Shown: piece after piece, positions 16,978 through 31,198 of the stretch | How the letters are laid out: every line of letters starts with the position of its first letter | How positions within the stretch are numbered: position 1 is the stretch's first letter | Assembly (NCBI RefSeq): GCF_014653945.1 | Contig: NZ_BNAU01000001.1 | Coordinates: forward strand, 124,001-188,000 | Direction: 5' to 3' | Source of the DNA: Amycolatopsis deserti | GTDB lineage: Bacteria; Actinomycetota; Actinomycetes; Mycobacteriales; Pseudonocardiaceae | DNA length: 64,000 nt | Notes under the pieces: generated by a model | The model's database searches: none | Seen by the model: only the letters and a program-made list of their open reading frames with translations | Told to the model about the DNA's origin: nothing | Made by a program: the position numbers and the translations under genes

Positions 16978-18216
16978 TCACCGCTGGTCGGGGGTTTCCT
17001 TGTGGAACTTGCCGTCCTTCATGATGTAGTGCAGTTTGTCGTGGTCCTGCAGGACGGTGATGTCGGCGAGCGGGTCCCCGTCGACGAGGAGCAGGTCGGC
17101 CAGGTAGCCGGGCTGGACCTTGCCGAGCTCGTGCGGGCGCAGCATGATCTCCCCGCCGAGCGCGGTGGCGGCCAGGATCGCCTCCATCGGCGTGTATTCG
17201 AAGCGCTCGACGAAGTGCTGCAGGTCGCGGGCGTAGGTGCCGTGCGGCGTCCAGGCGAAGCCGTAGTCGCCACCGGGCAGGACCCGGATGCCCCGCTTGT
17301 GCATCTCGATCATCGCGGCGGTGGCCATCTCCAGTTCGCGCTTGTAGCCCGCGGCTTCGGCGGCTTCCTGCGGGTAGCCGAAGTCGGCCGCCTCGTACAG
17401 GGTGGCCACCAGCCAGTTCACCCCGGGTGCGACGAAGATCCAGTCCTTGGCGGACTCCAGCAGGTCCATGCCTTCTTCGTCGGTGAAGCTGGCGTGGTAG
17501 ACGATGTCGACCCCGTGCCGCACGCACATCTTCACGCTCTCCGCACTGCGGGCGTGGGCACAGACCCGCTTGCCGCGCCGGTGCGCTTCGGTGACGGCTG
17601 CGGCGACCTCTTCGTCGGACATGTAGGTGTCCTCGGCGCGCTGGGTGCCGGTGATCTCCTCGCCGGTCATGGACAGCTTGATCTGGTCGACGCCGATCTC
17701 GATGAGTTTGCGCACGGTCTTGCGCATCTCCTCGGGGCCGTCGGCGAACCAGGTGATGCCCTTGACGAGCTCGCCGCCGGTGACCGCGATTTCCGGTCCG
17801 TTGGCCAGGTAGCGGGGGCCGGGGATGCGGCCGGCGTTGATGGCGTCGCGGCACACGACGTCGAGCCGGTCCTTGGCGGAGGCGGCGCCCAGGCACATGG
17901 TGTAGCCGGAGTCGATGTAGGAGCGGGCGGACTCGATCGCGAACAGCAGGTGCTCCTCGACCGGCAGGGCCGCCAGTCCGTCGAGGTCCCCGCTGTTGTT
18001 CCAGGTGAAGTGGGTGTGCGCGTCGCACAGCCCGGACATGAGGGTGCGGCCGCGGCCCTCGATCACGCGGGCGCCGTCCGCGGCGCCCGGCGCGGTCGCG
18101 CCGACCGAGACGATGCGGTCGTGGTCGACCAGGACGTCGCCCCGGTAGGGTTCGGCGCCGGTCGAGTCCAGAATGGACACGTCGCGGAACAGGGTCTTGT
18201 TCGCCGGGATGGACAT
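16978..18216 (-). CDS. metal-dependent amidohydrolase
   Basis: A 412-residue amidohydrolase-superfamily enzyme. It has the HxH metal motif in CDAHTHF (about residue 66), a Lys in IKLSMTGEE, a His in RVCAHARS, another in DIVYHASF, and an Asp in LPGGDYGFAW. The C-terminal KVQPGYLADLLLVDGDPL is typical of the imidazolonepropionase/prolidase-like branch. It should hydrolyse a cyclic or linear amide; substrate unknown. Third gene of the operon starting with the FAH-type gene. Confidence 0.85.
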   Translation of the reverse strand: MSIPANKTLFRDVSILDSTGAEPYRGDVLVDHDRIVSVGATAPGAADGARVIEGRGRTLMSGLCDAHTHFTWNNSGDLDGLAALPVEEHLLFAIESARSYIDSGYTMCLGAASAKDRLDVVCRDAINAGRIPGPRYLANGPEIAVTGGELVKGITWFADGPEEMRKTVRKLIEIGVDQIKLSMTGEEITGTQRAEDTYMSDEEVAAAVTEAHRRGKRVCAHARSAESVKMCVRHGVDIVYHASFTDEEGMDLLESAKDWIFVAPGVNWLVATLYEAADFGYPQEAAEAAGYKRELEMATAAMIEMHKRGIRVLPGGDYGFAWTPHGTYARDLQHFVERFEYTPMEAILAATALGGEIMLRPHELGKVQPGYLADLLLVDGDPLADITVLQDHDKLHYIMKDGKFHKETPDQR

Positions 18217-18244
18217 GGGCTCTCCTCGCCGTTGAGGGTTGGTG

Positions 18245-19006
18245 TCAGAGGAACTTGAGCAGCAGCTCGGTGGTTTCGCGTGCGGCTTCCAGCGGCGTCC
18301 AGTGGCCTACGCCGGGCAGGACGTCGAGTGTGGCGTTCCCGTGCGCCGCGGCCAGCGCCTCGCTGACCGACGGGGGACCGACCTTGTCGTCGGCGCCGGT
18401 GACCAGCAGCAGAGGCAGCTGAGCGGGCACCGGTCCCGGGTCCTCCGCCGCGGCCAGCGCCTCGCAGTTGCGGGCGTAGCCTTCCGGGTCCTGGCGCATG
18501 ACCAGCTCGCGCACGAACGCGGCGACCTCGGGCTTGTCGCGGCGGGTCGCCTCGGACAGGGCGTTCGCGACGACACCGGGCGCCACGGCCGCGGTGCCCT
18601 GGGCGCGCAGGAGGGCGGCCCGATCGCGCTGGGCCTGCCGTCCGGCTTCGGCGGGTTCGGCGACCGCGCCGAGCAGCGCCAGCGTGGACACCTTCGCGGG
18701 GTAACGCCTGGCGAAGTCGCGCGCCACCAAGGTGCCCATCGAATGGCCCACAACCGCGGCCGTGTCGACGCCGAGCGTGCCAAGGACGGCGGCGAGGTCG
18801 TCGGCGTGCGTGGTGATGCTGATGCCCTCCCGCAGGCCGGAGCGACCGGCGCCGGCCGAGTCGACGCGGATCACCCGGAAGCGTTCGGCCAGGGAGTCGG
18901 CCTGAACCTGGTAGAGGTTGGACGTGCCGCCCAGGCCGTGCACCATCAGCACTGCGGGGCCGTCACCGTGGACCTCCACGGCGAGGTCCGCACCGTTGAC
19001 GTTCAT
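18245..19006 (-). CDS. alpha/beta hydrolase (MhpC/PcaD-like)
   Basis: A 253-residue hydrolase: VHGLGGTSNL oxyanion loop, VGHSMGT nucleophile elbow, GADDKVG acid region, and a catalytic His in LPGVGHWTPLEA. ATG 19006 is chosen because AAGGAG lies 6 bp upstream; a GTG overlapping the FAH stop would place that site inside the gene. In the same operon as the FAH-type enzyme, where C-C bond or ester hydrolysis is the expected chemistry. Confidence 0.85.
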   Translation of the reverse strand: MNVNGADLAVEVHGDGPAVLMVHGLGGTSNLYQVQADSLAERFRVIRVDSAGAGRSGLREGISITTHADDLAAVLGTLGVDTAAVVGHSMGTLVARDFARRYPAKVSTLALLGAVAEPAEAGRQAQRDRAALLRAQGTAAVAPGVVANALSEATRRDKPEVAAFVRELVMRQDPEGYARNCEALAAAEDPGPVPAQLPLLLVTGADDKVGPPSVSEALAAAHGNATLDVLPGVGHWTPLEAARETTELLLKFL

Positions 19007-19017
19007 GTTGGTCTCCT

Positions 19018-19902
19018 TCACACGATCCGGTTGCGCAGCACACCGAGGCCGGTGATGGCGACCTCGACGACGTCGCCGTGGGACAGGAACTTCGGTGGCT
19101 CGAAGCCGATGCCGACCCCGGCCGGGGTGCCGGTGGCGATGATGTCGCCGGGCAGCAGCGTGATTCCCGCCGACAGGGTGGCGATCAGGTCCGGGATGTC
19201 GAAGATCAGGTCCTTGACCAGCGCCAGCTGGCGGTTCTCGCCGTTGACCGTGGTCTCCAGCTCCAGTGCGGTCACGTCCGGCACCTCATCGGCGCTGACC
19301 GCGTAGGGGCCCATCGGGCAGTGCGTGTCCAGCGACTTGCCCAGCAGCCACTGCTTGTGGTCGCGCTGCAGGTCCCGCGCGGTCACGTCGTTGACGATGG
19401 TGTAACCCCACACGTGCTCGAAGGCCCGCTCCCGGCTGATGCCGCGGCCGCCCCGGCCGATGATGACCCCGAGCTCACCCTCGTAGTCCAGTTCGGAGGT
19501 GACCCCGGGATGCGACTGGACGTCGTCGTAGGGGCCGGTCACTGACGTGGTGGCCTTGGAGAACACGATGGGTTTGTCCGGCAGCGCCTCGGAGCGGCCC
19601 GGCGTGTCGTACCCGCTGCGGCCGAACTCCGCGACGTGTTCGCGGTAGTTCTTCCCGACGCAGAACACGTTGCGGCGGGGCACCGGAATCGGCGCGCGCA
19701 GCCGCACCGAGTCCAGCGGCACCCCGGGCAGCTCGGGGATGCGCTCGGTCAGGGCGGGGCCGAGCGCATCCCAGTTCTCGACGACTTCGAGCACCCCGGC
19801 CCCGTCGGGCAACACCGCGCTGACATCGCGGACCAGTCCGGCCCCGGGGTCGGCGACCCCGACCCGGTCCGCCGCTTCCGCGGTGAACGTCACCAGTTTC
19901 AT
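19018..19902 (-). CDS. fumarylacetoacetate hydrolase-family enzyme
   Basis: A 294-residue FAH-superfamily protein. Metal ligands are in ELDYEGELGVIIG (Glu-Glu) and the later Asp in IVNDVTARDLQ, with the helix ending LLPGDIIATGTPAGVG. The N-terminal MKLVTFTAEAADRVGVAD is the usual cap of the bacterial 5-carboxymethyl-2-hydroxymuconate isomerase / acylpyruvase group. It should hydrolyse, decarboxylate or isomerise a beta-diketo or 2-oxo-enoic acid. First gene of a four-gene operon, divergent from GntR, with operator-like repeats between. Confidence 0.87.
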   Translation of the reverse strand: MKLVTFTAEAADRVGVADPGAGLVRDVSAVLPDGAGVLEVVENWDALGPALTERIPELPGVPLDSVRLRAPIPVPRRNVFCVGKNYREHVAEFGRSGYDTPGRSEALPDKPIVFSKATTSVTGPYDDVQSHPGVTSELDYEGELGVIIGRGGRGISRERAFEHVWGYTIVNDVTARDLQRDHKQWLLGKSLDTHCPMGPYAVSADEVPDVTALELETTVNGENRQLALVKDLIFDIPDLIATLSAGITLLPGDIIATGTPAGVGIGFEPPKFLSHGDVVEVAITGLGVLRNRIV

Positions 19903-19906
19903 GTGT

Positions 19907-20010
19907 GACCAATCTGAACCAATAGCAGACCAATTCTTGCTGCGACAGACCCTACGTGCTCGCAACCGTGCTGTCGAGGGTGTACAAATTGGTCTCAATT
20001 GGTCAGACGA
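19907..20010. promoter_or_regulatory. GntR/FadR-type operator region
   Basis: GACCAAT at 19907 and 19928 (21 bp apart) with ACCAAT between them near the FAH gene. On the regulator side are TTGGTC at 19989 and 19999 (10 bp apart). The last overlaps TGGTCAGACGA (20000-20010), which fits the FadR-group consensus TNGTNNNACNA. These flank the divergent promoters. Confidence 0.6.
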
Positions 20011-20025
20011 TGGTAGCCTTGGGTC

Positions 20026-20685
20026 ATGAGGACGGTGGAGCAGTCCCTGCGTGCGCTGGTCGCGGAAGGCGCCCGCGACGGCACGCTCGGCCCCGGCGCG
20101 AAACTGCCAACCGAGCGGGATCTGGTGGCGCGGCTGTCGGCCCCGCGCAGCGCGATCCGGCGCGCGCTGGACGCGCTCGAACGCGACGGGCTGGTGATCC
20201 GGGAGGTCGGGCGCGGCACCTTCCTCACCGAGGCCGTCCGCGCGGAGGCCGACGCGCCGGCGGACACCAGCCCAGCCGAGATCATGCAGGTCCGGCAGTT
20301 GCTGGAACCGCAGGTCGCCATGCTCGCCGCCCGGGTGGCCACCCAGGCCGACCTCGCCCGCATCGGTGAGGCCCTGGACGCCGGTGGCGCGGCGGAAGAC
20401 TTCGAGGGTTTCGAACGCTCCGACGCGCTCCTGCACCGCTCCATCGCCGTGGCCGCCCACAACGGCCTGCTGATGACGATGTTCGACGTGATGAACACCG
20501 CCCGGTCACTGCCGGTGTGGGGAAGCCTCAAGCGCCGCACCTCGACGCCCGAACTGCGTCGCTGTTACCACCGGGAACACAGCGACATCGTGGAAGCCTT
20601 GCGTGACCGCGATCCCGGCGGGGCCGGGGAGGCGATGCGCGCCCACCTCCAGCACGTCAGCGACACCCTCCTCGGCCGCGGGTGA
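20026..20685 (+). CDS. FadR/GntR-family regulator
   Basis: A 219-residue regulator with a winged helix at residues 5-70 (GAKLPTERDLVARLSAPRSA, then VIREVGRGTFL) and an FCD ligand domain (LLEPQVAMLAARVA, FERSDALLHRSIA, the late His in CYHREHSDIVEAL). FCD domains bind organic acids through metal-held His residues. Divergent from the FAH operon, which it probably represses. The end of the gene forms one arm of a long hairpin. Confidence 0.88.
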   Translation: MRTVEQSLRALVAEGARDGTLGPGAKLPTERDLVARLSAPRSAIRRALDALERDGLVIREVGRGTFLTEAVRAEADAPADTSPAEIMQVRQLLEPQVAMLAARVATQADLARIGEALDAGGAAEDFEGFERSDALLHRSIAVAAHNGLLMTMFDVMNTARSLPVWGSLKRRTSTPELRRCYHREHSDIVEALRDRDPGGAGEAMRAHLQHVSDTLLGRG

Positions 20686-20724: not shown

Positions 20725-21396
20725 TCACTCCTCGATGACGAGTCCCTTGGCTTCGAGGACGCCGGCGAGGCTGCTGACCTCGATGACGCTGCGGCCCGAC
20801 CGGTACGCGGCGATGTAGGCGGCTTCCGCCTCTTCGCGCTTGCGGGCCCGCTCGATCGCGTACGCCAGGTCCTCGCGGCGCACCACGACTAAGCCGTCGG
20901 CGTCACCGCGGATCACGTCGCCGGGGCGGACCAGTTCGCCGCCGATCTGGATCGGCTCCGCCATGGGGCCGACGGTCTCCTTGACCGTGCCTTTGATGGA
21001 CACGCTGTAGGAGAAGACCGGGAACCCCAGCTTGCGCAGCTCGGCCGTGTCCCGCACGCCGGTGTCGGTCACCAGTCCGGCGAGGCCCTTGGCCTGGCAG
21101 GCGTTGGCCAGCACGTCCCCGAAGGAACCGGCCTCGGCGTACTCACCCGCCGACACCACGACGACGTCACCCGGTTGTGCGTGGGCGATCGCCACCTGGA
21201 GCATCAGGTTGTCGCGCGGCGCGCAGCGAACGGTGAACGCCGGGCCGCACAACGACATGCCCGGGTCGACCGGTTTGAGGGCCGAGCTCAGCGCGCCGAG
21301 CCGCCCCTGAGCTTCGTGGATCGTGGCAGTCGAGAAGCGGGCCAGCTCCTCGACGAGCGCCCGGTCCGGCCGGTCGAACTTCGTGTTGACGCGCAA
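20725..21396 (-). CDS. RraA-like 4-hydroxy-2-oxo-acid aldolase
   Basis: A 223-residue RraA-fold protein. It has STATIHEAQGRLG near the N-terminus, GDVLANACQAKGLAG and TDTGVRDTAEL (the Arg-Asp pair of class II aldolases in this fold), and GDVIRGDADGLVVV. The family includes 4-hydroxy-4-methyl-2-oxoglutarate / 4-carboxy-4-hydroxy-2-oxoadipate aldolase, which make pyruvate plus a second oxo acid. TTG 21396 is the likely start (AAAGGA upstream). RNase E inhibition is unlikely in this context. Last gene of the Pxp operon, just after an aminotransferase that could make its 2-oxo acid substrate. Confidence 0.8.
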   Translation of the reverse strand: MRVNTKFDRPDRALVEELARFSTATIHEAQGRLGALSSALKPVDPGMSLCGPAFTVRCAPRDNLMLQVAIAHAQPGDVVVVSAGEYAEAGSFGDVLANACQAKGLAGLVTDTGVRDTAELRKLGFPVFSYSVSIKGTVKETVGPMAEPIQIGGELVRPGDVIRGDADGLVVVRREDLAYAIERARKREEAEAAYIAAYRSGRSVIEVSSLAGVLEAKGLVIEE

Positions 21397-21407
21397 GGGA
21401 AATCCTT

Positions 21408-22607
21408 TCAGGACAGGCGGGCGCAGGCGCGGGCGATGGCCTCGCACGCCTCGTCCAGGACGGCGGTGGAGGTGGCGAAGGACACCCGGAAGTAGCCGGG
21501 TGTTCCGTAGGCGGCGCCGTGGATCACCGCCACCCGCTCGGACTCCAGTAGGTAGCGGGAGAACTCCTCGTCGGTGCGCAGCGCGTCCCCGGCGGGAGTG
21601 TGCTTGCCGAGCAGCCCGCCGCAGTTGACGAAGAGGTAGAACCCGCCGCTGGGTGCGGTGACCGACAGCCCGGGAACGTCGGCCAGCAGCTTGGCGACCC
21701 GGTCCCGGCGGCCGCGGTAGGTGGCGACCGCCGTGGCCACGAAGTCCTGCGGACCGGTCAGCGCCGCGACCGCCGCCGCCTGGCTGACCGAGGAGGGGCA
21801 GGACGACATCTGGGACTGCAGCTTGTTGATCGCGCCCACCAGCTCACGCGGGCCGGCGCCGTAGCCGATGCGCCACCCGGTCATCGCGTAGGTCTTCGAC
21901 ACGCCGTTGGTGAGGAACACCCGGTCCCGCAGCCGCGGTTCCACGGCCGCGAGCGTGGGCACGTTCTCCGGCTCGTACCAGATTTCATCGTAGATCTCGT
22001 CGGTGAGCACGTGCACCTGCGGGTGAGCGAGCAGCACGCCGGCCAGCCCGCGTAACTCCTCCGCCGAGTAGGCGGCGCCGGTCGGGTTGCCGGGGGAATT
22101 GAGCACCAACCAGCGCGTCCGCGGCGTGATCGCCGCCTCCAGCCGCGCGGGGGTGAGCTTGAACACGTCGTACTCGGGGCAGTCGACGATGACCGGTGTC
22201 CCGTCGTTGGCCAGCACCATGTCCGGGTAGGACACCCAGTACGGCGCGGGGATGACCACTTCGTCGCCGTGGTCGACCGTGGCCATCAGCGCGAGGAAGA
22301 TGACCTGCTTGGCGCCACCGCCGACGGTGATCTCCTCGTCCGGGTAGTGCAGGCCGTGGCGGTGGCCGAGCTTGGCCCGGATCGCCGCACGCAGTTCGGG
22401 CGTGCCGTTGACGGGCGTGTACTTGGTCTCGCCCCGTTCGACGGCGGCGATCGCGGCGGCCTTGACGTGGTCCGGTGTGTCGAAGTCCGGTTCGCCGACG
22501 GTCAGGTCGAGGATCCGCTGCCCCTGGGCCGTCAGTTCACGTACCCGTTGCGCCGCCGCCGAGCTGGGCGAGGGCTTGATCCGGGCTACTCGTGCGGCCG
22601 TGGTCAT
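21408..22607 (-). CDS. class I/II aminotransferase (AspC-like)
   Basis: A 399-residue PLP enzyme: TVGEPDFDTPDHV near the N-terminus, NSPGNPTGAAYS for the cofactor Asn, TDEIYDEIWY, the PLP Lys in SKTYAMTGWRIGYG and the substrate Arg in GYFRVSFATS. This is the aspartate/aromatic aminotransferase I-gamma type. It should move the amino group of a dicarboxylic amino acid to 2-oxoglutarate or the reverse. It sits between the SDR (1 bp gap) and the aldolase (11 bp gap), which suggests the order amino acid, 2-oxo acid, aldol cleavage. Confidence 0.87.
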   Translation of the reverse strand: MTTAARVARIKPSPSSAAAQRVRELTAQGQRILDLTVGEPDFDTPDHVKAAAIAAVERGETKYTPVNGTPELRAAIRAKLGHRHGLHYPDEEITVGGGAKQVIFLALMATVDHGDEVVIPAPYWVSYPDMVLANDGTPVIVDCPEYDVFKLTPARLEAAITPRTRWLVLNSPGNPTGAAYSAEELRGLAGVLLAHPQVHVLTDEIYDEIWYEPENVPTLAAVEPRLRDRVFLTNGVSKTYAMTGWRIGYGAGPRELVGAINKLQSQMSSCPSSVSQAAAVAALTGPQDFVATAVATYRGRRDRVAKLLADVPGLSVTAPSGGFYLFVNCGGLLGKHTPAGDALRTDEEFSRYLLESERVAVIHGAAYGTPGYFRVSFATSTAVLDEACEAIARACARLS

Positions 22608-22608
22608 G

Positions 22609-23352
22609 TCAGTCCGCCCGCCTCTCGAAGTTCAGCCCGCCGGGCACCTGGAAGGTCGGCAGGATCTCGATGTGGCCGACGTTGACGTGGCGCGGCGAGG
22701 TGATGGCGAACTCGATCGCGTCGGCGATGTCCTCCGGTTTCAGCGACTCGTACCCGTCGTAGTACTCCCGCTGGGCGCGGTCCATGTCGCCGAGCAGACG
22801 CCCGAAGATCTCGGTCTCGACCCGGCCCGGGCAGATCTCGGTGACGCGGACGCGCCGGCCGAAGGCGTCGACGCGGAGCTGGCGGGACAGCGTGTGCACG
22901 GCGGACTTCGTGGCGTGGTAGATGGTGTTGCCGCGGAAGTTGTAGACCCCGGCGATCGAGCTGATGTTGACGATGTGCCCGAGGTCCCGCTCGACCATGC
23001 CGGGCATGACCAGCCGCACGAGGTGCAGGACGGCCTGGATGTTCACGGCGACCTGCTCGTCGACGGCGAACTCGTCGGCGGTGAGGATGTTCCCGGTGCG
23101 GGAGACACCGGCGTTGTTGACCAGGACGTCGATCTCGAGACCGTCGACGAGCTCGGTCAGGGCCGCGGTGGAGGTGACGTCGACGGCGTGCGGTACGCAC
23201 CCGGTGCGCCGGGCCAGCTCGTCGAGCCGTTCGGCGTTGCGGGCGACAGCGTGGACCCGCAGGCCCTGTTTGGCCAGTCGTTCCACGACCTCGGCGCCGA
23301 TGCCGGTCGAGGCGCCGGTGACCAGGGCGGTCTTGTAGTCGGAAAACGGCAT
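22609..23352 (-). CDS. SDR oxidoreductase (YdfG / serine dehydrogenase-like)
   Basis: A 247-residue classical SDR. It has TGASTGIG at the cofactor site, VNNAGVS, active Ser in NISSIAG, YHATK (Tyr and Lys), and CPGRVETEIF. The C-terminal SPRHVNVGHIEILPT matches the YdfG group, which oxidises 3-hydroxy acids and serine derivatives with NADP. ATG 23352 has AAGGAG upstream. It may oxidise a hydroxy group on the operon's substrate. Confidence 0.85.
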   Translation of the reverse strand: MPFSDYKTALVTGASTGIGAEVVERLAKQGLRVHAVARNAERLDELARRTGCVPHAVDVTSTAALTELVDGLEIDVLVNNAGVSRTGNILTADEFAVDEQVAVNIQAVLHLVRLVMPGMVERDLGHIVNISSIAGVYNFRGNTIYHATKSAVHTLSRQLRVDAFGRRVRVTEICPGRVETEIFGRLLGDMDRAQREYYDGYESLKPEDIADAIEFAITSPRHVNVGHIEILPTFQVPGGLNFERRAD

Positions 23353-23380
23353 TTTTCCAGTGCTCCTTGGTGGGGTTGGG

Positions 23381-24688
23381 TCAGGCGTCGCGCAGGGGCT
23401 CGTGGGCCCGGTCGCGCACCCGGGACACCGCGATGAGCGTGCCCAGCGCGGTGAGGACGGCGTAGTAGGCGGGAATGTGGACGTCGCCGGTCTGTCCGAT
23501 GAGGAACGTCATCAGCAGTGGCGCGGTGCCGCCGAAGACGGCGGAGGAGATGTTGTAGCCCAGCCCGTAGGCGGAGTAGCGCACCCGGGTGGGGAACAGC
23601 TCGACGAGCAGGATGTGTATGACGCCGGTGTGCCCGGCGAAGATGACCGCCATGATGCTGGCGCCCAGGATCGCGAGTGCGACGTTGCCGGTGCCGATGA
23701 GCAGGTAGCAGGGGACACCCGCGAGGGCCATCGCGATGGCGGCGCCGGCGATGACCTTCTTGCGGCCGACCTTGTCCGAGAGGGCTCCCATGAACGGGAT
23801 CGCCACGGAGATCGCCACGAGGCTCACCGCGGTCACCAGGAGGCCTTCGACCTTGCCGAAGTGCAGCTCCTTGCTCATGAAGGTGGGCATGTAGGTGAAC
23901 AGGACGTAGTAGCCGGAGCCGTTCATGAGCGGGATGAACAGGGCCAGCAGCATCGCGCGCCGGTGCCGGGGCGAGGAAAACGCCTCCTTCAGCGGGTTGC
24001 GTGCCAGGCCGCCTTCCTCCTGGAGCCGCGTGAAGTTGGGGGTGTCGGAGATGCGGCGGCGGATGTAGAGGCCGGTGATACCCAGCGGGATGGCGAGCAG
24101 GAACGGGATCCGCCAGCCGAAGGACTGCATCCGGTCGGCCCCGAGGCCGCTGGTCATCGCGGCGGCGATCAGTGTGCCGGTCAGCAGCGACAGGAACGAC
24201 GCGATCTGAGCGTAGCTGGTGTAGAGGCCGCGTTTGCCCGGTGGGGCGTGCTCGGCGAGGAACGTCATGGCTCCCGCGGCTTCACCGCCGACCGAGAACC
24301 CCTGCAGGACCCGCAGCAGGATCAGCAGGATCGGCGCCGCGATCCCGATCGCCGCGTAGGTGGGCAGGAGGCCGATGGCGGCGGTGGCGACGCTGATCAG
24401 CATGATGACGAACACGAGCATCCGCTGACGGCCGATCCGGTCGCCGAGGTGGCCGCAGATGATCCCGCCGAGCGGGCGGAAGAAGAACGAGATCGCGTAG
24501 CCGACGAAGACCAGCATCACGGCGTTGGCCGAGTCCGGGAAGAACACCGCGGCGAGCGTGCCCGCCATGAACCCGAAGATGCCGTTGTCGTAGAGCTCGG
24601 CGAAGATGCCGACACAGCCGGCCAGGGTGACCTTGCGGGCGGTCCTGGGATCGACCACGTTCGACTGGGATGACGCCACGGTACTCAT
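23381..24688 (-). CDS. MFS transporter, metabolite:H+ symporter type
   Basis: About 435 residues and 12 helices of the MHS group (ProP/KgtP/ShiA-like). Signatures are GHLGDRIGRQRM in loop 2-3, RVLQGFSVGGEAAGA in helix 4, and SDTPNFTRL in the central loop. ATG 24688 has AAGGAG 6 bp upstream; an ATG five codons earlier overlaps the pxpC stop. Its place between pxpC and the SDR makes it the probable importer of the operon's substrate, by analogy a small zwitterionic or acidic compound. Confidence 0.85.
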   Translation of the reverse strand: MSTVASSQSNVVDPRTARKVTLAGCVGIFAELYDNGIFGFMAGTLAAVFFPDSANAVMLVFVGYAISFFFRPLGGIICGHLGDRIGRQRMLVFVIMLISVATAAIGLLPTYAAIGIAAPILLILLRVLQGFSVGGEAAGAMTFLAEHAPPGKRGLYTSYAQIASFLSLLTGTLIAAAMTSGLGADRMQSFGWRIPFLLAIPLGITGLYIRRRISDTPNFTRLQEEGGLARNPLKEAFSSPRHRRAMLLALFIPLMNGSGYYVLFTYMPTFMSKELHFGKVEGLLVTAVSLVAISVAIPFMGALSDKVGRKKVIAGAAIAMALAGVPCYLLIGTGNVALAILGASIMAVIFAGHTGVIHILLVELFPTRVRYSAYGLGYNISSAVFGGTAPLLMTFLIGQTGDVHIPAYYAVLTALGTLIAVSRVRDRAHEPLRDA

Positions 24689-24699
24689 GGTGGACTCCT

Positions 24700-25686
24700 T
24701 CATCGGCGGGTAAGGACGGGGAGGTCGAGGGACTGCAGCACCGCGGCGGCGCGGTGCCGGACCGAACGGATGACGGCGCGTTCGGTCCGGTGGGCGGCGA
24801 CCGCCTCGGCGACCGTGCGGTGGCGGAAGCGGATGGTGTGCCCGGGTCTGGCCTGTCCGAGCGGGGAGAGACTGGTCGAGGTGACCACGGCGAGCACCGG
24901 ATAACCGGCGGTGACGCCCCGGCCGCGGTGCAGGACCAGGAGTTGATCGCCGGCGGGGACTTCCACGGCGCCGACGGGCACACCGCGGGAGAGAACCTCA
25001 CCCGAGGCGACCCGCTGGGGCACCGGGCCGCTCATCCGCAGTCCGATGTGGTTGCTCGACGGTGTCACGACGTAGGCGGAGGACAGCAGGCGCCCGGCCG
25101 AGTCGCCGAACTCGGCGATGTCGGGGCCGTCGGTCACATCGATCGTCCAGCTCTCGCCGAACCGGGGCCGGGGCGGCCGGATGCGGAACAGCGGGTGCCG
25201 GAACTCCGGGTGCCCGATCGGCGGGCACTGCGCCCCGAGCGCGAGGTCGTCCCCGGGCCGCAGGAAGCGGCCGAATCCCAGGATGGTGTCGGGCGCGCAG
25301 CTGCCGAGCAGGGACTCGGCGTGGACGGAGCCGTAGACCGCCAGGTACACGCGCAGGCCCAGCCGGATCCCCCGGACGGCCAATGTCTGGCCGCCGCGGA
25401 CTGCGAGCGGCTCCCATTGGGGCTGCGGGATCCCGTCGACCGTGAGGTCGGCGGGGGCCCCGGTGACGGCGACGAGCACGTCGGTGGACGGTGTGCAGCT
25501 GAAGTCGAGGGCGGTGATCTCGATGAGCGGATCGGTGTCGTCGTTGCCGCACAGGGCGTTGGCGACACGTGCGGAGTACTGGTCGAGCGCGCCGTTGACG
25601 GGCAGGCCGTAGCGCGAGCGGCCGGGCCGGCCGAGGTCCTGGACGGTGGCGTGGCCGCTCTGCCGGACGGTCAGGGTGTCAGCCAT
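24700..25686 (-). CDS. pxpC: 5-oxoprolinase subunit C (KipA-like)
   Basis: A 328-residue protein of the KipA/PxpC family, often labelled biotin-dependent carboxyltransferase-like. ATVQDLGRPGRSRYGLPVNG opens the domain and is diagnostic. Other family blocks are GALDQYSARVANALCGND and SNHIGLRMSGP. With PxpA and PxpB it hydrolyses 5-oxoproline to glutamate using ATP. Overlaps pxpB by 8 bp. Confidence 0.9.
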   Translation of the reverse strand: MADTLTVRQSGHATVQDLGRPGRSRYGLPVNGALDQYSARVANALCGNDDTDPLIEITALDFSCTPSTDVLVAVTGAPADLTVDGIPQPQWEPLAVRGGQTLAVRGIRLGLRVYLAVYGSVHAESLLGSCAPDTILGFGRFLRPGDDLALGAQCPPIGHPEFRHPLFRIRPPRPRFGESWTIDVTDGPDIAEFGDSAGRLLSSAYVVTPSSNHIGLRMSGPVPQRVASGEVLSRGVPVGAVEVPAGDQLLVLHRGRGVTAGYPVLAVVTSTSLSPLGQARPGHTIRFRHRTVAEAVAAHRTERAVIRSVRHRAAAVLQSLDLPVLTRR

Positions 25687-26389
25687 GGCCGGCCGCCAGG
25701 GCAGAGCCGGCGTAGTCGTCCCACTGGCCGGGCTCGATCGGCACGAACCGGAACTCGTCCCCCGGCTGGTAGGGGGTGAGCTGTTCGGATCCCAGGTCGA
25801 GGATCCGCAGCGGGGTCCGGCCCAGCAGCGGCCAGCCGCCGGGGGAGCGCAGCGGGCAGATCACGGCCTGCCGCCCGGCGACGGCGATCGATCCGGGCGG
25901 GACGCTGGTGCGTGGCGAGGCCAGGCGGGGCACCGGGCGGGGGAACGGCGGGCCGTCCATCATGGGAGCGCCGACGGGGGCGCCCAGGCACCGCACGGTC
26001 AGGACGGCGCCGGAGTGGATCTCCACGACCTCCCGCTCGGTGATGCCCAGCTGCCGCGCTACCTCGGGCAGATCCGGCCCGTGCTCGCCGCCGTACACGA
26101 CCGGCACGACGAACCGCTTCGGCGCGGGGCGGCGGCCCGAACCGGGCTGTGCGCCCGCCGCCCGCCGGACCATCCGCCGCACGGCTTCGTGATCGGTGAG
26201 GCCGGGGTCGAACTCCACGAGAAGCGAGTCGTAGGTCGGCACGACCCCGTGGACACCGGCCAGGCCGGCGTCTTCGATCGCGTCGGCGAGGCTGTGCACG
26301 ACCCGCCACCGGTGCTCGGCGTCCCCGTCCAGGGCCTTCACCACGATCGCGGAGTCGCCGCAGTCGGCGATCAGGGCGCCCTCAGCCAT
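25679..26389 (-). CDS. pxpB: 5-oxoprolinase subunit B (KipI-like)
   Basis: A 236-residue KipI/PxpB protein. The core is VPVVYGGEHGPDLPEVARQ followed by EVVEIHSG and FPRPVPRLASPRTSVPPGS, then VICPLRSPGGWPLLGRTP, all typical of the cyclophilin-like C-terminal domain. The LGFxxG-like turn found in most members reads CLGAPVGAPMM here. Overlaps both pxpA and pxpC, so the three are co-translated. Confidence 0.9.
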   Translation of the reverse strand: MAEGALIADCGDSAIVVKALDGDAEHRWRVVHSLADAIEDAGLAGVHGVVPTYDSLLVEFDPGLTDHEAVRRMVRRAAGAQPGSGRRPAPKRFVVPVVYGGEHGPDLPEVARQLGITEREVVEIHSGAVLTVRCLGAPVGAPMMDGPPFPRPVPRLASPRTSVPPGSIAVAGRQAVICPLRSPGGWPLLGRTPLRILDLGSEQLTPYQPGDEFRFVPIEPGQWDDYAGSALAAGHG

Positions 26390-27182
26390 GACACCACCCC
26401 GCGCCGGTCCGGGAAGCCAGGACCTCGGTCAGCGCCGCGATGACCACGCCGGCGCGGGTCAGCTCGTCCCGGATCCGGTGGGCCAGTGAAATCGCGCCGG
26501 CGGTGTCGCCGTGCACGAGCACGGTGTCGCACTCGACGGGCAGATCGGTGTCGTCGACGGTCCGGATCACCCCTTCGGTCACCATGCGCACGGTGCGCCG
26601 GGCGATCTCGTCCGGGTCGTGGATCACCGCGCCCGGTGCGGCGCGCGGAACCAGGGTGCCGTCCGCGCGGTAAGCGCGGTCGGCGATACCCACGATCGCG
26701 ACGGCCAGGCCGCGGGTGCGGGCGGCGACGGCGAGCTCACCCTGCTGCGCCAGCACGATCAGCGAGGGATCCACGGTGGCCACGGCGTCGGCGACCGCGG
26801 CGGCGTAGTCGCTCCGGGTCGCGACGAGGTTGCCGAGCCGGCCGTGCGGCGCGACGTGGCGCACGCGGGTTCCGTGGGCGGTGGCGAAGGCCTGCAACGC
26901 GCCGATCTGGTACAGCACGTCGGTCCGCACCTCGTCGGGTGTCAGGTCCATCGCGCGGCGGCCGAACCCCACCAGATCGGGGAAGCTCGGGTGCGCGCCC
27001 ACGGCGACGCCGCGGCGAACGCACGACGAGACGGTCGCGTCCATGATCCGCGGGTCGCCGGCGTGGAAACCGCAGGCGACGTTTGCCGACGTCAGGAGGT
27101 CCAGCAGGGCCTTGTCGTCGCCCATCCGGTAGGCGCCGAACCCTTCGCCGAGATCGGCGACGAGATCCACCATCCGGGTCAT
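26382..27182 (-). CDS. pxpA: 5-oxoprolinase subunit A (LamB/YcsF family)
   Basis: A 266-residue LamB/YcsF protein. It has VADLGEGFGAYRMGDD (normally DLNExFG; here the Asn is Gly), then SANVACGFHAGDP, GAHPSFPDLVGFGRR, HVAPHGRLGN and LVHGDTAGA. ATG 27182 is chosen because GGAGGG lies 5 bp upstream. First gene of a seven-gene leftward operon. The DLNE to DLGE and KPHG to APHG changes in normally conserved motifs hint at a substrate other than plain 5-oxoproline. Confidence 0.88.
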   Translation of the reverse strand: MTRMVDLVADLGEGFGAYRMGDDKALLDLLTSANVACGFHAGDPRIMDATVSSCVRRGVAVGAHPSFPDLVGFGRRAMDLTPDEVRTDVLYQIGALQAFATAHGTRVRHVAPHGRLGNLVATRSDYAAAVADAVATVDPSLIVLAQQGELAVAARTRGLAVAIVGIADRAYRADGTLVPRAAPGAVIHDPDEIARRTVRMVTEGVIRTVDDTDLPVECDTVLVHGDTAGAISLAHRIRDELTRAGVVIAALTEVLASRTGAGWCHG

Positions 27183-27335
27183 TCTCACCCTCCGGAAAAA
27201 GTGCGCGGAAACGTGCTCGGAAAACTGATTCAATCTGCTCGAAACATCCTGTCCGAGCCCCGGGAATCCGGTGTTTCGCTGACTTTAAGCTCGGGGCCGC
27301 AGGCGGACAAATACGCGATCCGCGTGATGTGATCG

Positions 27336-27358
27336 GGATCCGTTATGGCAGCGGATCC
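27336..27358. promoter_or_regulatory. LysR-type binding palindrome
   Basis: GGATCCG-N9-CGGATCC, 7-bp perfect arms, contains the T-N11-A pattern of LysR sites. It lies in the 235-bp divergent region between pxpA (starts 27182) and lysR (starts 27418), closer to the regulator, as expected for a recognition site. The rest of the gap is AT-richer and holds no gene. Confidence 0.6.
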
Positions 27359-27417: not shown

Positions 27418-28323
27418 ATGGACACCCGGCGTCTGTACTCGTTCGTCAAGATCGTCGACGCCGGCAGCATCACCCGCGCCGCCGACATCCTGCGCATCGC
27501 CCAGCCCGCGCTGAGCCAGCACGTGTCCATGCTGGAGCGGGACTTCAAGCAGCAGTTGCTGATCCGCAGCAAGCGCGGCGTCGCCCCGACCGAGGCCGGC
27601 CGGGCGCTGTACCGGCACGCGCAGCTGATCCTGCGTCAGGTCGAACAGGCTCAGGCCGCGGTCAGCGTCTCCGGCCGCGCCCCGGCCGGCAGCGTGTCGG
27701 TCGGCCTCGCCCCCTACAGCACCGGTGCGGCGCTGGCGCTGCCGCTGCTGCGGGCCGTCCGCGAGCGCTATCCGGACATCGTGCTGCACATCAACGAGAA
27801 CTTCGGCGGCGTGATCAGCGAGGCGATCATGACCGGGCGCATGGACATGGCCTTCATCTACGACGCCGGACCGATCCGGGGCGTGCAGTTCGAACCGATG
27901 CGCACCGAGGAGCTGTTCCTGGTCGCGGGGCCGGGCTGCGCGGGGCTGGTGCCGGGCGGTGACGAGGTCGCGGTCGGCGACCTGGCCGAGGTCGGCCTGC
28001 TGCTGCCCAGCCGCATCCACACCATCCGGCGCGTGGTGGAGGCGGCCTTCGCCCGGGCGGAGGTGGAGCCGCGGGTGGTCGGCGAGATCGAGTCGGTGCT
28101 CACGCTGGTGAGCGCGGTCGGCGCCGACCTCGGCGCGACGGTCCTGCCGTGGTCGGCGGCGCGCGCGATCCTGGACACCGAGCACCTGGTGGTGCGCCGG
28201 ATCGTCGATCCGGTGATCGAGGTGAAGCTGTCGCTGTGCACCTCCGATCACCAGCCGTTGTCGGAGGCGGCGCTGGCCGTCCACGACCTCTTCCACGAGC
28301 TGATCGCCACTTTCCGGCCATGA
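27418..28323 (+). CDS. LysR-family regulator (Nac/Cbl-like)
   Basis: A 301-residue LysR protein. The helix-turn-helix spans residues 1-60 (RLYSFVKIVDAGSITRAADI, LRIAQPALSQHVSMLE). The effector domain resembles the nitrogen-assimilation Nac group (INENFGGVISEAIMTGRMDM, VLPWSAAR). Starts at ATG 27418 with a GAAGGGG site. Divergent from the Pxp operon and its probable activator; a nitrogen-linked regulator would suit an operon releasing amino nitrogen. Confidence 0.87.
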   Translation: MDTRRLYSFVKIVDAGSITRAADILRIAQPALSQHVSMLERDFKQQLLIRSKRGVAPTEAGRALYRHAQLILRQVEQAQAAVSVSGRAPAGSVSVGLAPYSTGAALALPLLRAVRERYPDIVLHINENFGGVISEAIMTGRMDMAFIYDAGPIRGVQFEPMRTEELFLVAGPGCAGLVPGGDEVAVGDLAEVGLLLPSRIHTIRRVVEAAFARAEVEPRVVGEIESVLTLVSAVGADLGATVLPWSAARAILDTEHLVVRRIVDPVIEVKLSLCTSDHQPLSEAALAVHDLFHELIATFRP

Positions 28324-28337
28324 CCCATCAGCAGATC

Positions 28338-28393
28338 CGATAACGTCAGCCGGAATCGCTATTTGTACCGCCGCGGAATCGCTCGATAACGTC
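28338..28393. repeat. two nested direct repeats upstream of the hydroxyacid dehydrogenase operon
   Basis: CGATAACGTC occurs at 28338-28347 and 28384-28393, and CGGAATCGCT at 28351-28360 and 28374-28383. The order is A-B-B-A, all copies in the same orientation, within 56 bp directly upstream of the operon at 28426. Likely a regulator binding array; which protein binds is unknown. Confidence 0.55.
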
Positions 28394-28425
28394 GGGAGAA
28401 CAATTTGTTTCGCGAGGAGTGCGGT

Positions 28426-29403
28426 ATGAAACAGCGTGTCCTGAGCACCCGCGGGCACCTGCCCGGAACGGGGCTGGAGCGCCTGGCCGGGCGGGTCGAG
28501 CTCGTGCGCGGGCCGGGTGACAAGCCGGGGGCCGGCGAGCTGGCGGACCTCGCGCGCGGCGTCGACGGCATCCTGTGCCTGGGCAACGACCGGATCGACG
28601 CCGCGCTGCTGGACGCCGCCGGTCCCGGACTGAAGGTCGTGAGCCTGGCCAGCATGGGCTTCGACGCCGTCGACCAGCGTGCCGCTGCCGATCGGGGCGT
28701 CGTGGTGACCCACACCCCGGGGGTGCTCGCCGAGACCACCGCGGACCTGGCCTGGGCTCTGATCCTGATGGCCCGTCGCCGTCTGGGCTCGGCCCGCGAC
28801 CGGCTGCACGCCGGCGACTGGACCGTCTTCCGCATGGACGACTTCCTCGGATTGGACGTGCACGGCGCCACCCTCGGCCTGGTCGGCTACGGCCAGATCG
28901 GCCGCGCGGTCGCCCGCCGCGCTGTCGGTTTCGGCATGCGCGTGCTGCACCTCGACCCGTTCAGCACCGCCGGCGACGAGCTGTCACAGCCGGCGGACCT
29001 GCCCACCCTGCTGGCCGAATCCGACATCGTGTCGCTGCACGTGCCGCTGACCGAGGCGACGCGCCATCTCATCGGCCCGGCCGAGCTGGGCAGCATGAAG
29101 ACCACCGCGACCTTGATCAACACCTCGCGGGGTGGTGTCGTGGACGAGGCCGCGCTGCTGCACGCCCTGCGCGAGGGCGTCATCCACTCCGCCGGGCTCG
29201 ACGTGTTCGAACACGAGCCGCGCGGAGCGGACGTCGCCGACCTGGTCGCGCAGTCGAAGCTGGTGGCTCTCCCGCACGTCGGATCGGCCACCGAGGCGAC
29301 CCGCGCGGCGATGGTGGACCTGGCCGTCGACAACCTCCTCGACGTCCTGTCCGGCCGGCCGGCGCGCACGCCGATCCCCGGCGCCGTGGCGGTGCCGCGG
29401 TGA
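28426..29403 (+). CDS. D-2-hydroxyacid dehydrogenase (GhrB-like)
   Basis: A 325-residue NAD(P)-dependent 2-hydroxyacid dehydrogenase. Cofactor loop is GLVGYGQIGRA, and the catalytic triad is Arg in NTSRGGVVDE, Glu in DVFEHEP and His in LPHVGSAT. It reduces glyoxylate, hydroxypyruvate or 2-keto sugar acids such as 2-ketogluconate. ATG 28426 has a CGAGGAG site. Overlaps the next SDR gene by 4 bp and starts a three-gene operon that resembles idonate/ketogluconate metabolism. Confidence 0.87.
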   Translation: MKQRVLSTRGHLPGTGLERLAGRVELVRGPGDKPGAGELADLARGVDGILCLGNDRIDAALLDAAGPGLKVVSLASMGFDAVDQRAAADRGVVVTHTPGVLAETTADLAWALILMARRRLGSARDRLHAGDWTVFRMDDFLGLDVHGATLGLVGYGQIGRAVARRAVGFGMRVLHLDPFSTAGDELSQPADLPTLLAESDIVSLHVPLTEATRHLIGPAELGSMKTTATLINTSRGGVVDEAALLHALREGVIHSAGLDVFEHEPRGADVADLVAQSKLVALPHVGSATEATRAAMVDLAVDNLLDVLSGRPARTPIPGAVAVPR

Positions 29404-30170
29404 GCCACCCGCTGTTCGACATCCGCGGCCGCGTCGCTCTGGTCACCGGTTCCAGCCGCGGCATCGGGCGCGCGCTGGCCCAGGGGCTGGCCGAAGCCGG
29501 TTGTGCGGTCGTCCTCAATGGACGCGACCGGCACGCGCTCGAACGGACCCGCGCCGAACTGGCCGACCGCACCGGGGCCACGGTTCACGCGCAGGCGTTC
29601 GACGTCACCGACCCCGGCGCGGTCGCCGAGGCGATCCCGCGCCTGGAAGACCTCGCCGGCCCGCTGGACATCCTCGTCAACAACGCCGGAATGCAGCACC
29701 GCGCGCCGTTCACCGAGTTCCTGACCGAGGACTGGCATCGGCTGCTGGAGACCAACCTCAGCAGCGCGTTTCTCGTCGGCCGCGAGGTCGCGCGGCGGAT
29801 GACCGCGCGCGGCTCGGGCAAGATCGTCAACATCTGCTCGGTGCAGAGCGAGGTGGTCCGCCCCGGCATCGCGCCCTATTCGGCCACCAAGGGCGGGCTG
29901 AAGATGCTCACCAAGGGCATGTGCGCCGACCTCGGCCCGTCCGGGATCCAGGTCAACGGGCTCGCCCCGGGCTATTTCGACACCGAGCTCACCGCGGCGC
30001 TCGTCGCGGACGAGACGTTCACCGCTTGGGTGCGCGGCCGCACCCCGGCGGGACGGTGGGGCCAGGTGGGCGACCTGGTCGGCGCGCTGATCTTCCTGTG
30101 CTCACCGGCGTCGGATTTCGTCAACGGACAGCTGCTCTACGTCGACGGCGGCATGACCTCCGTCCTGTGA
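29400..30170 (+). CDS. SDR, gluconate 5-dehydrogenase-like
   Basis: A 256-residue SDR. FDIRGRVALVTGSSRGIGRA, LVNNAGMQHRAPF, NICSVQSEVVRPGIAPYSAT (Ser, Tyr and Lys positions) and FLCSPASDFVNGQLLYVDGG match IdnO/Gno-type 5-ketogluconate reductases closely. The GTG start overlaps the preceding stop. Expected reaction: 5-keto-D-gluconate to D-gluconate with NAD(P)H. Neighbouring GhrB-like and IdnD-like genes support sugar-acid catabolism. Confidence 0.87.
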   Translation: MSHPLFDIRGRVALVTGSSRGIGRALAQGLAEAGCAVVLNGRDRHALERTRAELADRTGATVHAQAFDVTDPGAVAEAIPRLEDLAGPLDILVNNAGMQHRAPFTEFLTEDWHRLLETNLSSAFLVGREVARRMTARGSGKIVNICSVQSEVVRPGIAPYSATKGGLKMLTKGMCADLGPSGIQVNGLAPGYFDTELTAALVADETFTAWVRGRTPAGRWGQVGDLVGALIFLCSPASDFVNGQLLYVDGGMTSVL

Positions 30171-30184
30171 AGCGAGGAGTATCC

Positions 30185-31198
30185 ATGCTTGCGTGTGTCG
30201 TGCACGGCGCGGGGGACCTTCGGGTCGAGAACCGTGCGCTGGTGGAACCGGGCGAGGGCGAGATCGCGGTGGACGTCGCCCTGGGCGGCATCTGCGGATC
30301 GGACCTGCACTACTACCACCGTGGCGCGGTCGGCGACTTCCACGTGCGGGAACCGCTGGTGCTCGGTCACGAGGTCGTCGGGCACGTCGCGGCCCTCGGC
30401 TCCGATGTGGATGGTCCGGCGGCCGGTACCCCGGTGGCCGTCCACCCAGCCACGCCCTGTGACGACTGTCCGGAATGCACGGGGGACCACCGGAACGTCT
30501 GCGGCGACACACGGTACCTCGGCAGCGCGGCCCGCATGCCTCACGTGCATGGTGGGTTCGCGCAGCGCATCACGGTGCCGGCGGCACAGGTGCGAGCGCT
30601 GCCGCCCGGGGTCGAACTCGAGCGGGCCGTGCTCGCGGAACCGTTGTCGGTGGCGCTGCACGCGGTGCGCCGAGCCGGTGACGTCACCGGTCGGCGCGTC
30701 CTGGTCACCGGTGCCGGGCCGATCGGTTGCCTCCTGGTGGCGGCGCTGCGCCGGGCGGGTGCGGCCGAGGTCGTGGTCAGCGACCTGCTGGACGCTCCAC
30801 TGGCCCTGGCGTCGAAGGTGGGCGCGACCTCGGTCGTCAGGGCGGACGATCCGGCGGGCCCGGGGGAGACGGACATCGCCATCGAGGCGTCCGGGTCTCC
30901 GGCCGGCCTGCGCACCTGTCTGGAACGGGTGCGCCGCGCCGGCCGGGTCGTCCTGCTCGGGCTGCTGCCGCCCGGTGAGGTCGGATTCCTCGGCAACGTG
31001 GTCGTCACGCGGGAACTGACGCTTGCCGGAGCGTTCCGGTTCGACCGCGAATTCGACGAGGCGCTCACCCTGCTCGCCGACGGACTGCCCGTCGATCCCG
31101 TTGTCACCCACACCTTCCCCCTAGAGCGGGCCACGGAGGCCTTCGAGGTGGCCGGCAACCGCGCGATCGCGTCCAAGGTTCTGCTCGATCTGCGCTGA
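30185..31198 (+). CDS. zinc alcohol dehydrogenase, L-idonate 5-dehydrogenase-like
   Basis: A 337-residue medium-chain dehydrogenase. Catalytic zinc ligands are in GGICGSDLHYYHRG and LGHEVVGHV; structural zinc cysteines in CDDCPECTGDHRNVC; NAD site VTGAGPIG. CGSDLHYYxxGxxGxF is the IdnD-type signature. It should oxidise L-idonate or a related polyol acid at C5. ATG 30185 has GAGGAG upstream. Last gene of the operon; no gluconokinase follows, and only a fragment of one is seen (16479-16566). Confidence 0.87.
   Translation: MLACVVHGAGDLRVENRALVEPGEGEIAVDVALGGICGSDLHYYHRGAVGDFHVREPLVLGHEVVGHVAALGSDVDGPAAGTPVAVHPATPCDDCPECTGDHRNVCGDTRYLGSAARMPHVHGGFAQRITVPAAQVRALPPGVELERAVLAEPLSVALHAVRRAGDVTGRRVLVTGAGPIGCLLVAALRRAGAAEVVVSDLLDAPLALASKVGATSVVRADDPAGPGETDIAIEASGSPAGLRTCLERVRRAGRVVLLGLLPPGEVGFLGNVVVTRELTLAGAFRFDREFDEALTLLADGLPVDPVVTHTFPLERATEAFEVAGNRAIASKVLLDLR

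Follow-up and report, generated by a model that had tools for sequence, protein, structure and literature searches.

Which lactam is served by a PxpABC-type lactamase whose genes share an operon with those of a carrier, a short-chain dehydrogenase/reductase (SDR), an aminotransferase and an aldolase is the question raised by positions 20725–27182 of a 64,000-nucleotide stretch of Amycolatopsis deserti (RefSeq assembly GCF_014653945.1, contig NZ_BNAU01000001.1, positions 124,001–188,000), which is called the window here and whose numbering is used throughout. The seven-gene operon is about two thirds of the system, to which a divergent arm of four genes at 27418–31198 also belongs. In our judgement the chances are about even that all 11 genes belong to a single catabolic system, whose substrate is a 4-hydroxy-4-substituted 5-oxoproline bearing a sugar-acid-like chain at C4; of the known compounds, ascorbalamic acid fits best. 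We infer each reaction, their order and the substrate as the best explanation of what was observed, namely the genes, their families, the conservation of the set, the altered residues of PxpA and the motif of the aldolase.

The operon and its recurrence in two phyla

The seven-gene PxpABC operon of the original prediction was borne out, as all seven genes were found at their place on the minus strand and were matched to families by NCBIfam and Pfam profile scans, judged against the cut-offs of the models. These genes encode a PxpA-like LamB/YcsF family lactamase subunit (26382–27182; NF003814, 335 bits, cut-off 226); a PxpB-like carboxyltransferase subdomain C/D (25679–26389; TIGR00370, 125 bits, below the cut-off of 145.6; Pfam CT_C_D, 169 bits); a PxpC-like carboxyltransferase subdomain A/B (24700–25686; Pfam CT_A_B, 216 bits; NF045499, 148 bits against 500; TIGR00724, 203 bits against 230); a major facilitator superfamily (MFS) carrier of the metabolite/H+ symporter type, a probable importer (23381–24703; TIGR00883 as best match, 352 bits, below the cut-off of 443); an SDR closest to the YdfG-type 3-hydroxy-acid dehydrogenases (22609–23352; PRK10538, 155 bits, below the cut-off of 411; PDB 3asu); an aspartate-type aminotransferase (21408–22607; PRK06107, 660 bits, cut-off 617; nearest solved structures AatA/AatB, 6f77/6f35); and an RraA-fold pyruvate aldolase of the 4-hydroxy-4-methyl-2-oxoglutarate (HMG)/4-carboxy-4-hydroxy-2-oxoadipate (CHA) type (20725–21396; PRK09262, 218 bits, cut-off 179). 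Curated cut-offs are passed by PxpA, the aminotransferase and the aldolase, the last of which misses the stricter TIGR02798 model (199 against 304.5 bits), and the 5-oxoprolinase models are missed by PxpB and PxpC. Homologues of PxpA, PxpB and PxpC stand together in one operon, as in the PxpABC 5-oxoprolinases. Adjacent genes overlap or are separated by gaps of at most 28 bases when the aldolase gene, the last of the operon, is read from the TTG at 21396 behind GAAAGGA, its likeliest start (its longest frame starts at 21447).

The set was followed in 18 cluster loci, chosen among the matches listed rather than as a census: the window; seven other actinobacterial loci (L005, L006, L007, L008, L015, L016 and L017); and ten of the 21 proteobacterial plasmid loci fetched (L021, L022, L024, L025, L026, L028, L029, L030, L031 and L032), carried by Paracoccus, Rhizobium, Agrobacterium, Sinorhizobium, Bradyrhizobium, Burkholderia, Variovorax and Rahnella. 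PxpABC, the SDR and the aspartate-type aminotransferase occur together in all of them (8 actinobacterial, 10 proteobacterial) in varying gene order, the Agrobacterium aminotransferase scoring 514 bits against the PRK06107 cut-off of 617. An RraA-type protein was observed in 17/18 and a LysR match likewise in 17/18; L021 falls short of the threshold for the latter, but its annotation shows an adjacent LysR gene. The SDR is the best marker gene for the pathway. Among the plasmid loci, all proteobacterial, clusters were recovered with the SDR as bait in 6/6 cases, with RraA in 3/5, with the aminotransferase in 1/7 and with PxpA in 0/3. In all six loci fetched by the SDR, PxpABC and the aminotransferase are accompanied by a LysR gene, which five records annotate as nac; in the unannotated Variovorax record the LysR frame is 52% identical. 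Across 249 genomes of the host's order, the same three, host included, carry PxpC, the SDR and the aminotransferase (E limits 1e-60, 1e-60 and 1e-120), and at E 1e-60 the host is the only one of 396 genomes of the phylum with this PxpC. The set is accordingly rare and passed on as a whole. The window's SDR is 61–65% identical to the ten proteobacterial cluster copies, and PxpC shows identities of only 28–32% between the phyla. A biotin carboxylase gene was also observed with PxpABC in nine of the ten proteobacterial loci (L021, L022, L024, L025, L028–L032; not in the fetched stretch of Rahnella, L026) and in 0/8 actinobacterial loci.

PxpA residues and lineages

In the alignment, the five residues K104, Y110, E158, F160 and C216 of E. 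coli PxpA are kept in 36/36 control proteins and in 0/18 cluster proteins, the window's copy having A111, G117, V164, I166 and L222 in their place. Thirty of the controls came from genomes and were the best-scoring 30, so that they lean to typical PxpA members; a divergent copy from the host's own genome (L014) and one from a related but different cluster (L027) were left out of the 36. The five positions lie in the motifs KPHGxLY, ExFADR and CxHGD, adjoining conserved residues, a placement from which they would be expected to line the substrate pocket. In both phyla Y became G and F became I or L, a change that a larger substrate might need. The absence of these five control-constant residues from every cluster protein makes plain 5-oxoproline an unlikely substrate. 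The controls show 75 columns with a constancy of 95% or more, of which both cluster groups have lost 8 and all 18 proteins have kept only 14; three of the 8 are not constant in all controls, and E. coli shows the cluster's residue at two. The host genome has three further PxpA genes, two with an adjoining PxpC gene.

Of the five residues, K, Y, E and C are retained in the PxpA of L014, where the F position is occupied by Y, and the PxpA of L027 shows Y-to-G as the only one of the five changes. The latter cluster (Mesorhizobium, L027 10989–21165) comprises an aminotransferase, PxpABC with biotin carboxylase, an RraA protein, an Ldh-type oxidoreductase and an epoxide hydrolase, and possibly serves another substituted lactam. 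An isolated PxpA-like stretch, which is unannotated, shares 72% identity with the window's PxpA and is probably a remnant, was also found among transposase genes on a Pseudonocardia alni plasmid (L018 9950–11137).

In the PxpA trees the cluster proteins fall into two well-supported clades, an actinobacterial (100/99) and a proteobacterial one (99/98), which may or may not be sister groups. In the PxpC tree, from which L017 was left out as its gene is split, the proteobacterial group lies nearer to E. coli (92/90), the support of the group itself being modest (81/80).

The divergent arm and the proposed route

The operon was correctly delimited by the original prediction, which missed the divergent arm on the plus strand, an arm that accompanies the operon elsewhere, whole or in part. 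The arm begins with a LysR regulator of the NAC type (27418–28323; PRK11233, 359 bits, cut-off 309), followed by a 2-hydroxyacid dehydrogenase resembling glyoxylate reductase, GhrB and 2-ketogluconate reductase (28426–29403, ATG start; PRK13243, 259 bits, and PRK15409, 251 bits, both below cut-off; PDB 6bii, 2cuk, 9m0t); a second SDR of the gluconate 5-dehydrogenase (IdnO) type, SDR2 (29400–30170, GTG start; PRK07523, 363 bits, cut-off 413; PRK08085, 306 bits, cut-off 408); and a zinc-type enzyme like L-idonate 5-dehydrogenase, IdnD (30185–31198, ATG start, scanned from 30194; PRK09880 as best match, 295 bits, below the cut-off of 469). The GhrB, IdnD and IdnO enzyme kinds of the L-idonate pathway thus stand side by side at 28426–31198, with the family cut-offs missed by all three. 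One or more arm-type genes (2-hydroxyacid dehydrogenase, IdnD, SDR2 or gluconokinase) were found in 13/18 cluster loci and in 0/14 comparison loci, which were not randomly drawn, are in several cases shorter (12.8–16 kb) and include L018; L023 and E. coli L044 were left out of both groups in this count. All three arm enzyme kinds occur in 8/18 cluster loci and gluconokinase in 4/18, that of the host being encoded elsewhere in its genome.

Differential arrangements of the arm were observed among the carriers, such as Amycolatopsis tucumanensis, whose 11 genes are 94–99% identical to the window's; Agrobacterium larrymoorei, with a single array of PxpABC, the aminotransferase, NAC, the SDR, an importer, RraA and SDR2, then gluconokinase, the 2-hydroxyacid dehydrogenase and IdnD at the end; Paracoccus ferrooxidans, with gndA near the cluster; Streptomyces cf386, which has only the first of the arm dehydrogenases; and Nonomuraea, which is without the first. 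The idonate-type gene of Nocardia carnea and of genome G160 sits within the main operon itself, flanked by the SDR and aminotransferase genes, an arrangement in favour of a single common function. For the zinc dehydrogenase of Amycolatopsis, as for that of Agrobacterium, the best-matching model is IdnD.

The divergent intergenic region holds a 37-base element, ATA-N9-(T/G)AT-N17-GTATT (27310–27346, minus strand), of constant length in 7/8 actinobacterial loci, three of the seven being near-identical Amycolatopsis copies and L017 being without it. The pattern was defined after viewing the sequences, so that the rate seen in shuffled sequences does not test it independently; the element is a candidate operator for joint control of both arms. 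The pattern ATA-N9-TAT, which we take to be the NAC site, is present in 5/6 proteobacterial regions checked, a count that carries no chance estimate. Perfect palindromes were searched for in the divergent intergenic regions and none was shared.

On the 3' side, the GntR gene (20026–20685), the FAH-family gene (19018–19902), the alpha/beta hydrolase, amidohydrolase and NmrA-type genes and the far-side DctA gene were rejected as members, because none has a match at 1e-10 in any of the seven other actinobacterial loci. The amidohydrolase, the alpha/beta hydrolase, the FAH-family protein and the GntR regulator, which adjoin the operon at 16978–20685, are perhaps a separate catabolic cluster.

HMG/CHA aldolases release pyruvate and a 2-oxo acid. 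The window's aldolase, aligned to the HMG/CHA aldolase 3noj, retains the D-X20-R-D motif of that enzyme as D94-X20-R115-D116. The substrates cleaved by this family are 4-hydroxy-4-methyl-2-oxoglutarate and 4-carboxy-4-hydroxy-2-oxoadipate (excerpts of PMC5065237), a class of 4-hydroxy-4-substituted 2-oxoglutarates that therefore leads backwards to a 4-hydroxy-4-substituted glutamate at the aminotransferase and a 4-hydroxy-4-substituted pyroglutamate as the lactam. On the proposed route, the MFS carrier would import the lactam; the SDR, taken to reduce a 3-oxo acid because its nearest family is YdfG, would reduce the ketone of the C4 side chain; the specialised PxpABC would use ATP to open the lactam, giving a 4-hydroxy-4-substituted glutamate, which the aminotransferase would convert to the 2-oxo acid; and the RraA aldolase would split the latter into pyruvate and a 2-keto sugar acid, probably 2-keto-L-gulonate. 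The identity of this acid is suggested by the enzyme kinds of the arm, a 2-keto acid reductase, an idonate dehydrogenase, a ketogluconate reductase and, in 4/18 loci, gluconokinase. The 2-hydroxyacid dehydrogenase would then reduce 2-keto-L-gulonate to L-idonate, the IdnD-like enzyme would oxidise L-idonate to 5-keto-D-gluconate, and SDR2 would reduce this to D-gluconate for phosphorylation by gluconokinase. The series from 2-keto-L-gulonate through L-idonate, 5-keto-D-gluconate and D-gluconate to 6-phosphogluconate is described for Aspergillus niger in the text available from PMC5814732.

The logic of the original prediction, in which a substituted 5-oxoproline is opened, transaminated and split by the aldolase, is upheld by the gene set, the five PxpA residues, the D-X20-R-D motif and the three other PxpA genes, and was incomplete. 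It had held that plain 5-oxoproline would not need the SDR, the aminotransferase and the aldolase, and it gave the SDR no reaction. Its examples, plain 4-hydroxy- and 4-methyl-pyroglutamate, would not need the conserved divergent arm; the substrate is probably larger than was proposed.

Ascorbalamic acid, whose origin and ring structure are credited to Couchman, Synge and others (1973), is presumably a plant compound in which C2 of ascorbate bears an alanine unit. By computation, a pyroglutamate with a hydroxyl group and the chain C(=O)-CHOH-CHOH-CH2OH at C4 has the formula C9H13NO8, that of ascorbate plus dehydroalanine. The mass balance closes, since C9H13NO8, after addition of 2H and H2O, transamination and loss of pyruvate, leaves C6H10O7, which is 2-keto-L-gulonic acid. 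Ascorbalamic acid is listed as C9H13NO8 in a table of PMC3976912, and its name appears as a mass-spectrometric annotation in orange, in tea stem and in an extract from work on a potato cyst nematode. With this compound as substrate, every recurrent gene, the SDR included, would have one task. Rather more tentatively, and with less than even confidence, we suggest that soil and plant bacteria of two phyla share a complete pathway from ascorbalamic acid to gluconate, whose lactamase was drawn from two distinct PxpC lineages. A literature search over titles and abstract starts of open-licence papers found no account of this pathway.

Alternative substrates and known systems

Several observations weigh against a single system for ascorbalamic acid. 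The pocket role of the five PxpA positions is drawn from their place in motifs and not from a ligand-bound structure, and among the control PxpA proteins a function was taken from annotation for that of E. coli only. The three arm dehydrogenases score below the NCBIfam cut-offs, the first of them best as a glyoxylate reductase; the 2-hydroxyacid dehydrogenases of L008 and L016 (2/10 loci having one) are only 28–29% identical to the window's; and 5/18 cluster loci are without an arm-type gene in the fetched stretch, which reaches 0–11 kb past the outermost cluster gene. RraA is absent within 11 kb of the SDR in Rahnella, has G for D/E at the first acidic residue of the motif in Bradyrhizobium and Variovorax (2/17) and, in these two and in Burkholderia, belongs to another RraA subgroup (34–38% identity). 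A Sinorhizobium meliloti GR4 plasmid (L023) has RraA and the arm with no adjoining PxpABC, SDR or aminotransferase, and in the Arthrobacter plasmid (L017 8413–11016) PxpA and PxpC are each split over two frames, by sequencing error or decay. For ascorbalamic acid, the name and formula come from mass-spectrometric annotations. Finally, in a parallel rhizobial cluster the lactamase and the aldolase come from unrelated families, and the side chain may be a different one. The S. meliloti stretch itself (L023, 7948 to about 14900) comprises an amino-acid ABC importer, the RraA aldolase, a 2-hydroxyacid dehydrogenase, an idonate dehydrogenase, SDR2 and an unannotated gluconokinase-like frame.

Some of these observations would be met by a small substituted lactam, 4-hydroxy- or 4-hydroxy-4-methyl-pyroglutamate, broken down to pyruvate and glyoxylate or to two pyruvates, with the arm doing another job or reducing the small product. 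The aldolase family acts on HMG and CHA, as stated in the portion of PMC5065237 at hand, the mass balance also closes to glyoxylate, and the glyoxylate reductase score and the five loci that lack an arm-type gene fit as well. This explanation is nevertheless judged unlikely, at roughly one chance in five, as the arm and the operon share a divergent promoter in Amycolatopsis, the arm is found again beside the same core in another phylum, the gluconokinase of 4/18 loci is unnecessary for C2 or C3 products and the SDR is left without a role. Slightly less weight is given to a pyroglutamate whose C4 bears some other side chain, a sugar-acid or hydroxylated one that does not derive from ascorbate, with the chemistry otherwise as proposed here: gene families fix neither the stereochemistry nor the side chain and the arm enzymes fall under their cut-offs, but IdnD as best model in both Amycolatopsis and Agrobacterium points to L-idonate and so to 2-keto-L-gulonate.

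Ordinary use of 5-oxoproline is the least probable of the alternatives and would be a surprise. PxpABC would then yield glutamate, the aminotransferase aspartate and 2-oxoglutarate, and RraA would act as an oxaloacetate decarboxylase, in keeping with a PxpA above a PxpA model cut-off, an aminotransferase that is an aspartate transaminase by family and the name of PRK09262, aldolase/oxaloacetate decarboxylase. Such use sits poorly with the loss in 18/18 cluster proteins of five residues that all 36 controls, E. coli PxpA included, retain, with the 5-oxoprolinase cut-offs missed by PxpB and PxpC and with the three other PxpA genes of the genome, two of them adjoining PxpC; it also leaves the SDR and the arm unexplained. 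Unlike in Corynebacterium glutamicum, moreover, there is neither an APC-type PxpT carrier nor a GntR gene at the divergent promoter; a GntR gene exists at the operon's other end, but is not conserved there.

The closest known systems each share a part with this one. The PxpABC 5-oxoprolinase, as in the pxpTABC/pxpR locus of C. glutamicum (PMC13274462, from the text available), has the same three ATP-dependent lactamase subunit families, whereas the window has an MFS carrier in place of the APC-type PxpT, a LysR/NAC-type in place of the GntR-type PxpR, five replaced PxpA residues, and the added SDR, aminotransferase and aldolase. With the HMG/CHA aldolases of the LigK/GalC type from the protocatechuate and gallate cleavage pathways (PMC5065237, same excerpts) the window's aldolase shares the family cut-off, the D-X20-R-D motif and the substrate class of 4-hydroxy-4-substituted 2-oxoglutarates, but its operon is shared with a lactamase and an aminotransferase, and no operon gene matched an aromatic ring-cleavage family in the NCBIfam and Pfam scans. 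The enzyme kinds of the arm suggest the same reaction series as in the fungal D-glucuronate route, GluC/GluD-GluE-GluF, and the E. coli L-idonate pathway (PMC5814732 and PMC5306355, in the parts accessible), namely 2-keto acid reductase, L-idonate 5-dehydrogenase, SDR 5-ketogluconate reductase and gluconokinase; here the series would be fed from the aldol cleavage of a lactam-derived amino acid. The rhizobial cluster (L019 9983–17881, L020 9983–17643) has an aminotransferase 63–65% identical, a NAC-type LysR, a hydantoinase/oxoprolinase-family lactamase and a pyruvate-aldolase-family protein. Its lactamase (hydantoinase A/B) and aldolase (HpcH-type) families are, however, unrelated to those of the window and its SDR is only 31% identical; it may be a parallel lactam route built from unrelated enzymes. 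Hydantoinase A/B-like frames (40% and 28% identical to the rhizobial ones) and another MFS carrier were also observed downstream of the operon in A. tucumanensis (L005 16274–20984).

If so, some of the genes annotated as 5-oxoprolinase would form a group of their own that handles larger lactams and is marked by the five residues, a group for which the usual annotation can mislead. Should the substrate be correct, the fate of ascorbalamic acid would become testable with one purified enzyme set, and a plant metabolite known for decades would gain a consumer among bacteria, one that has transport and regulation dedicated to it.

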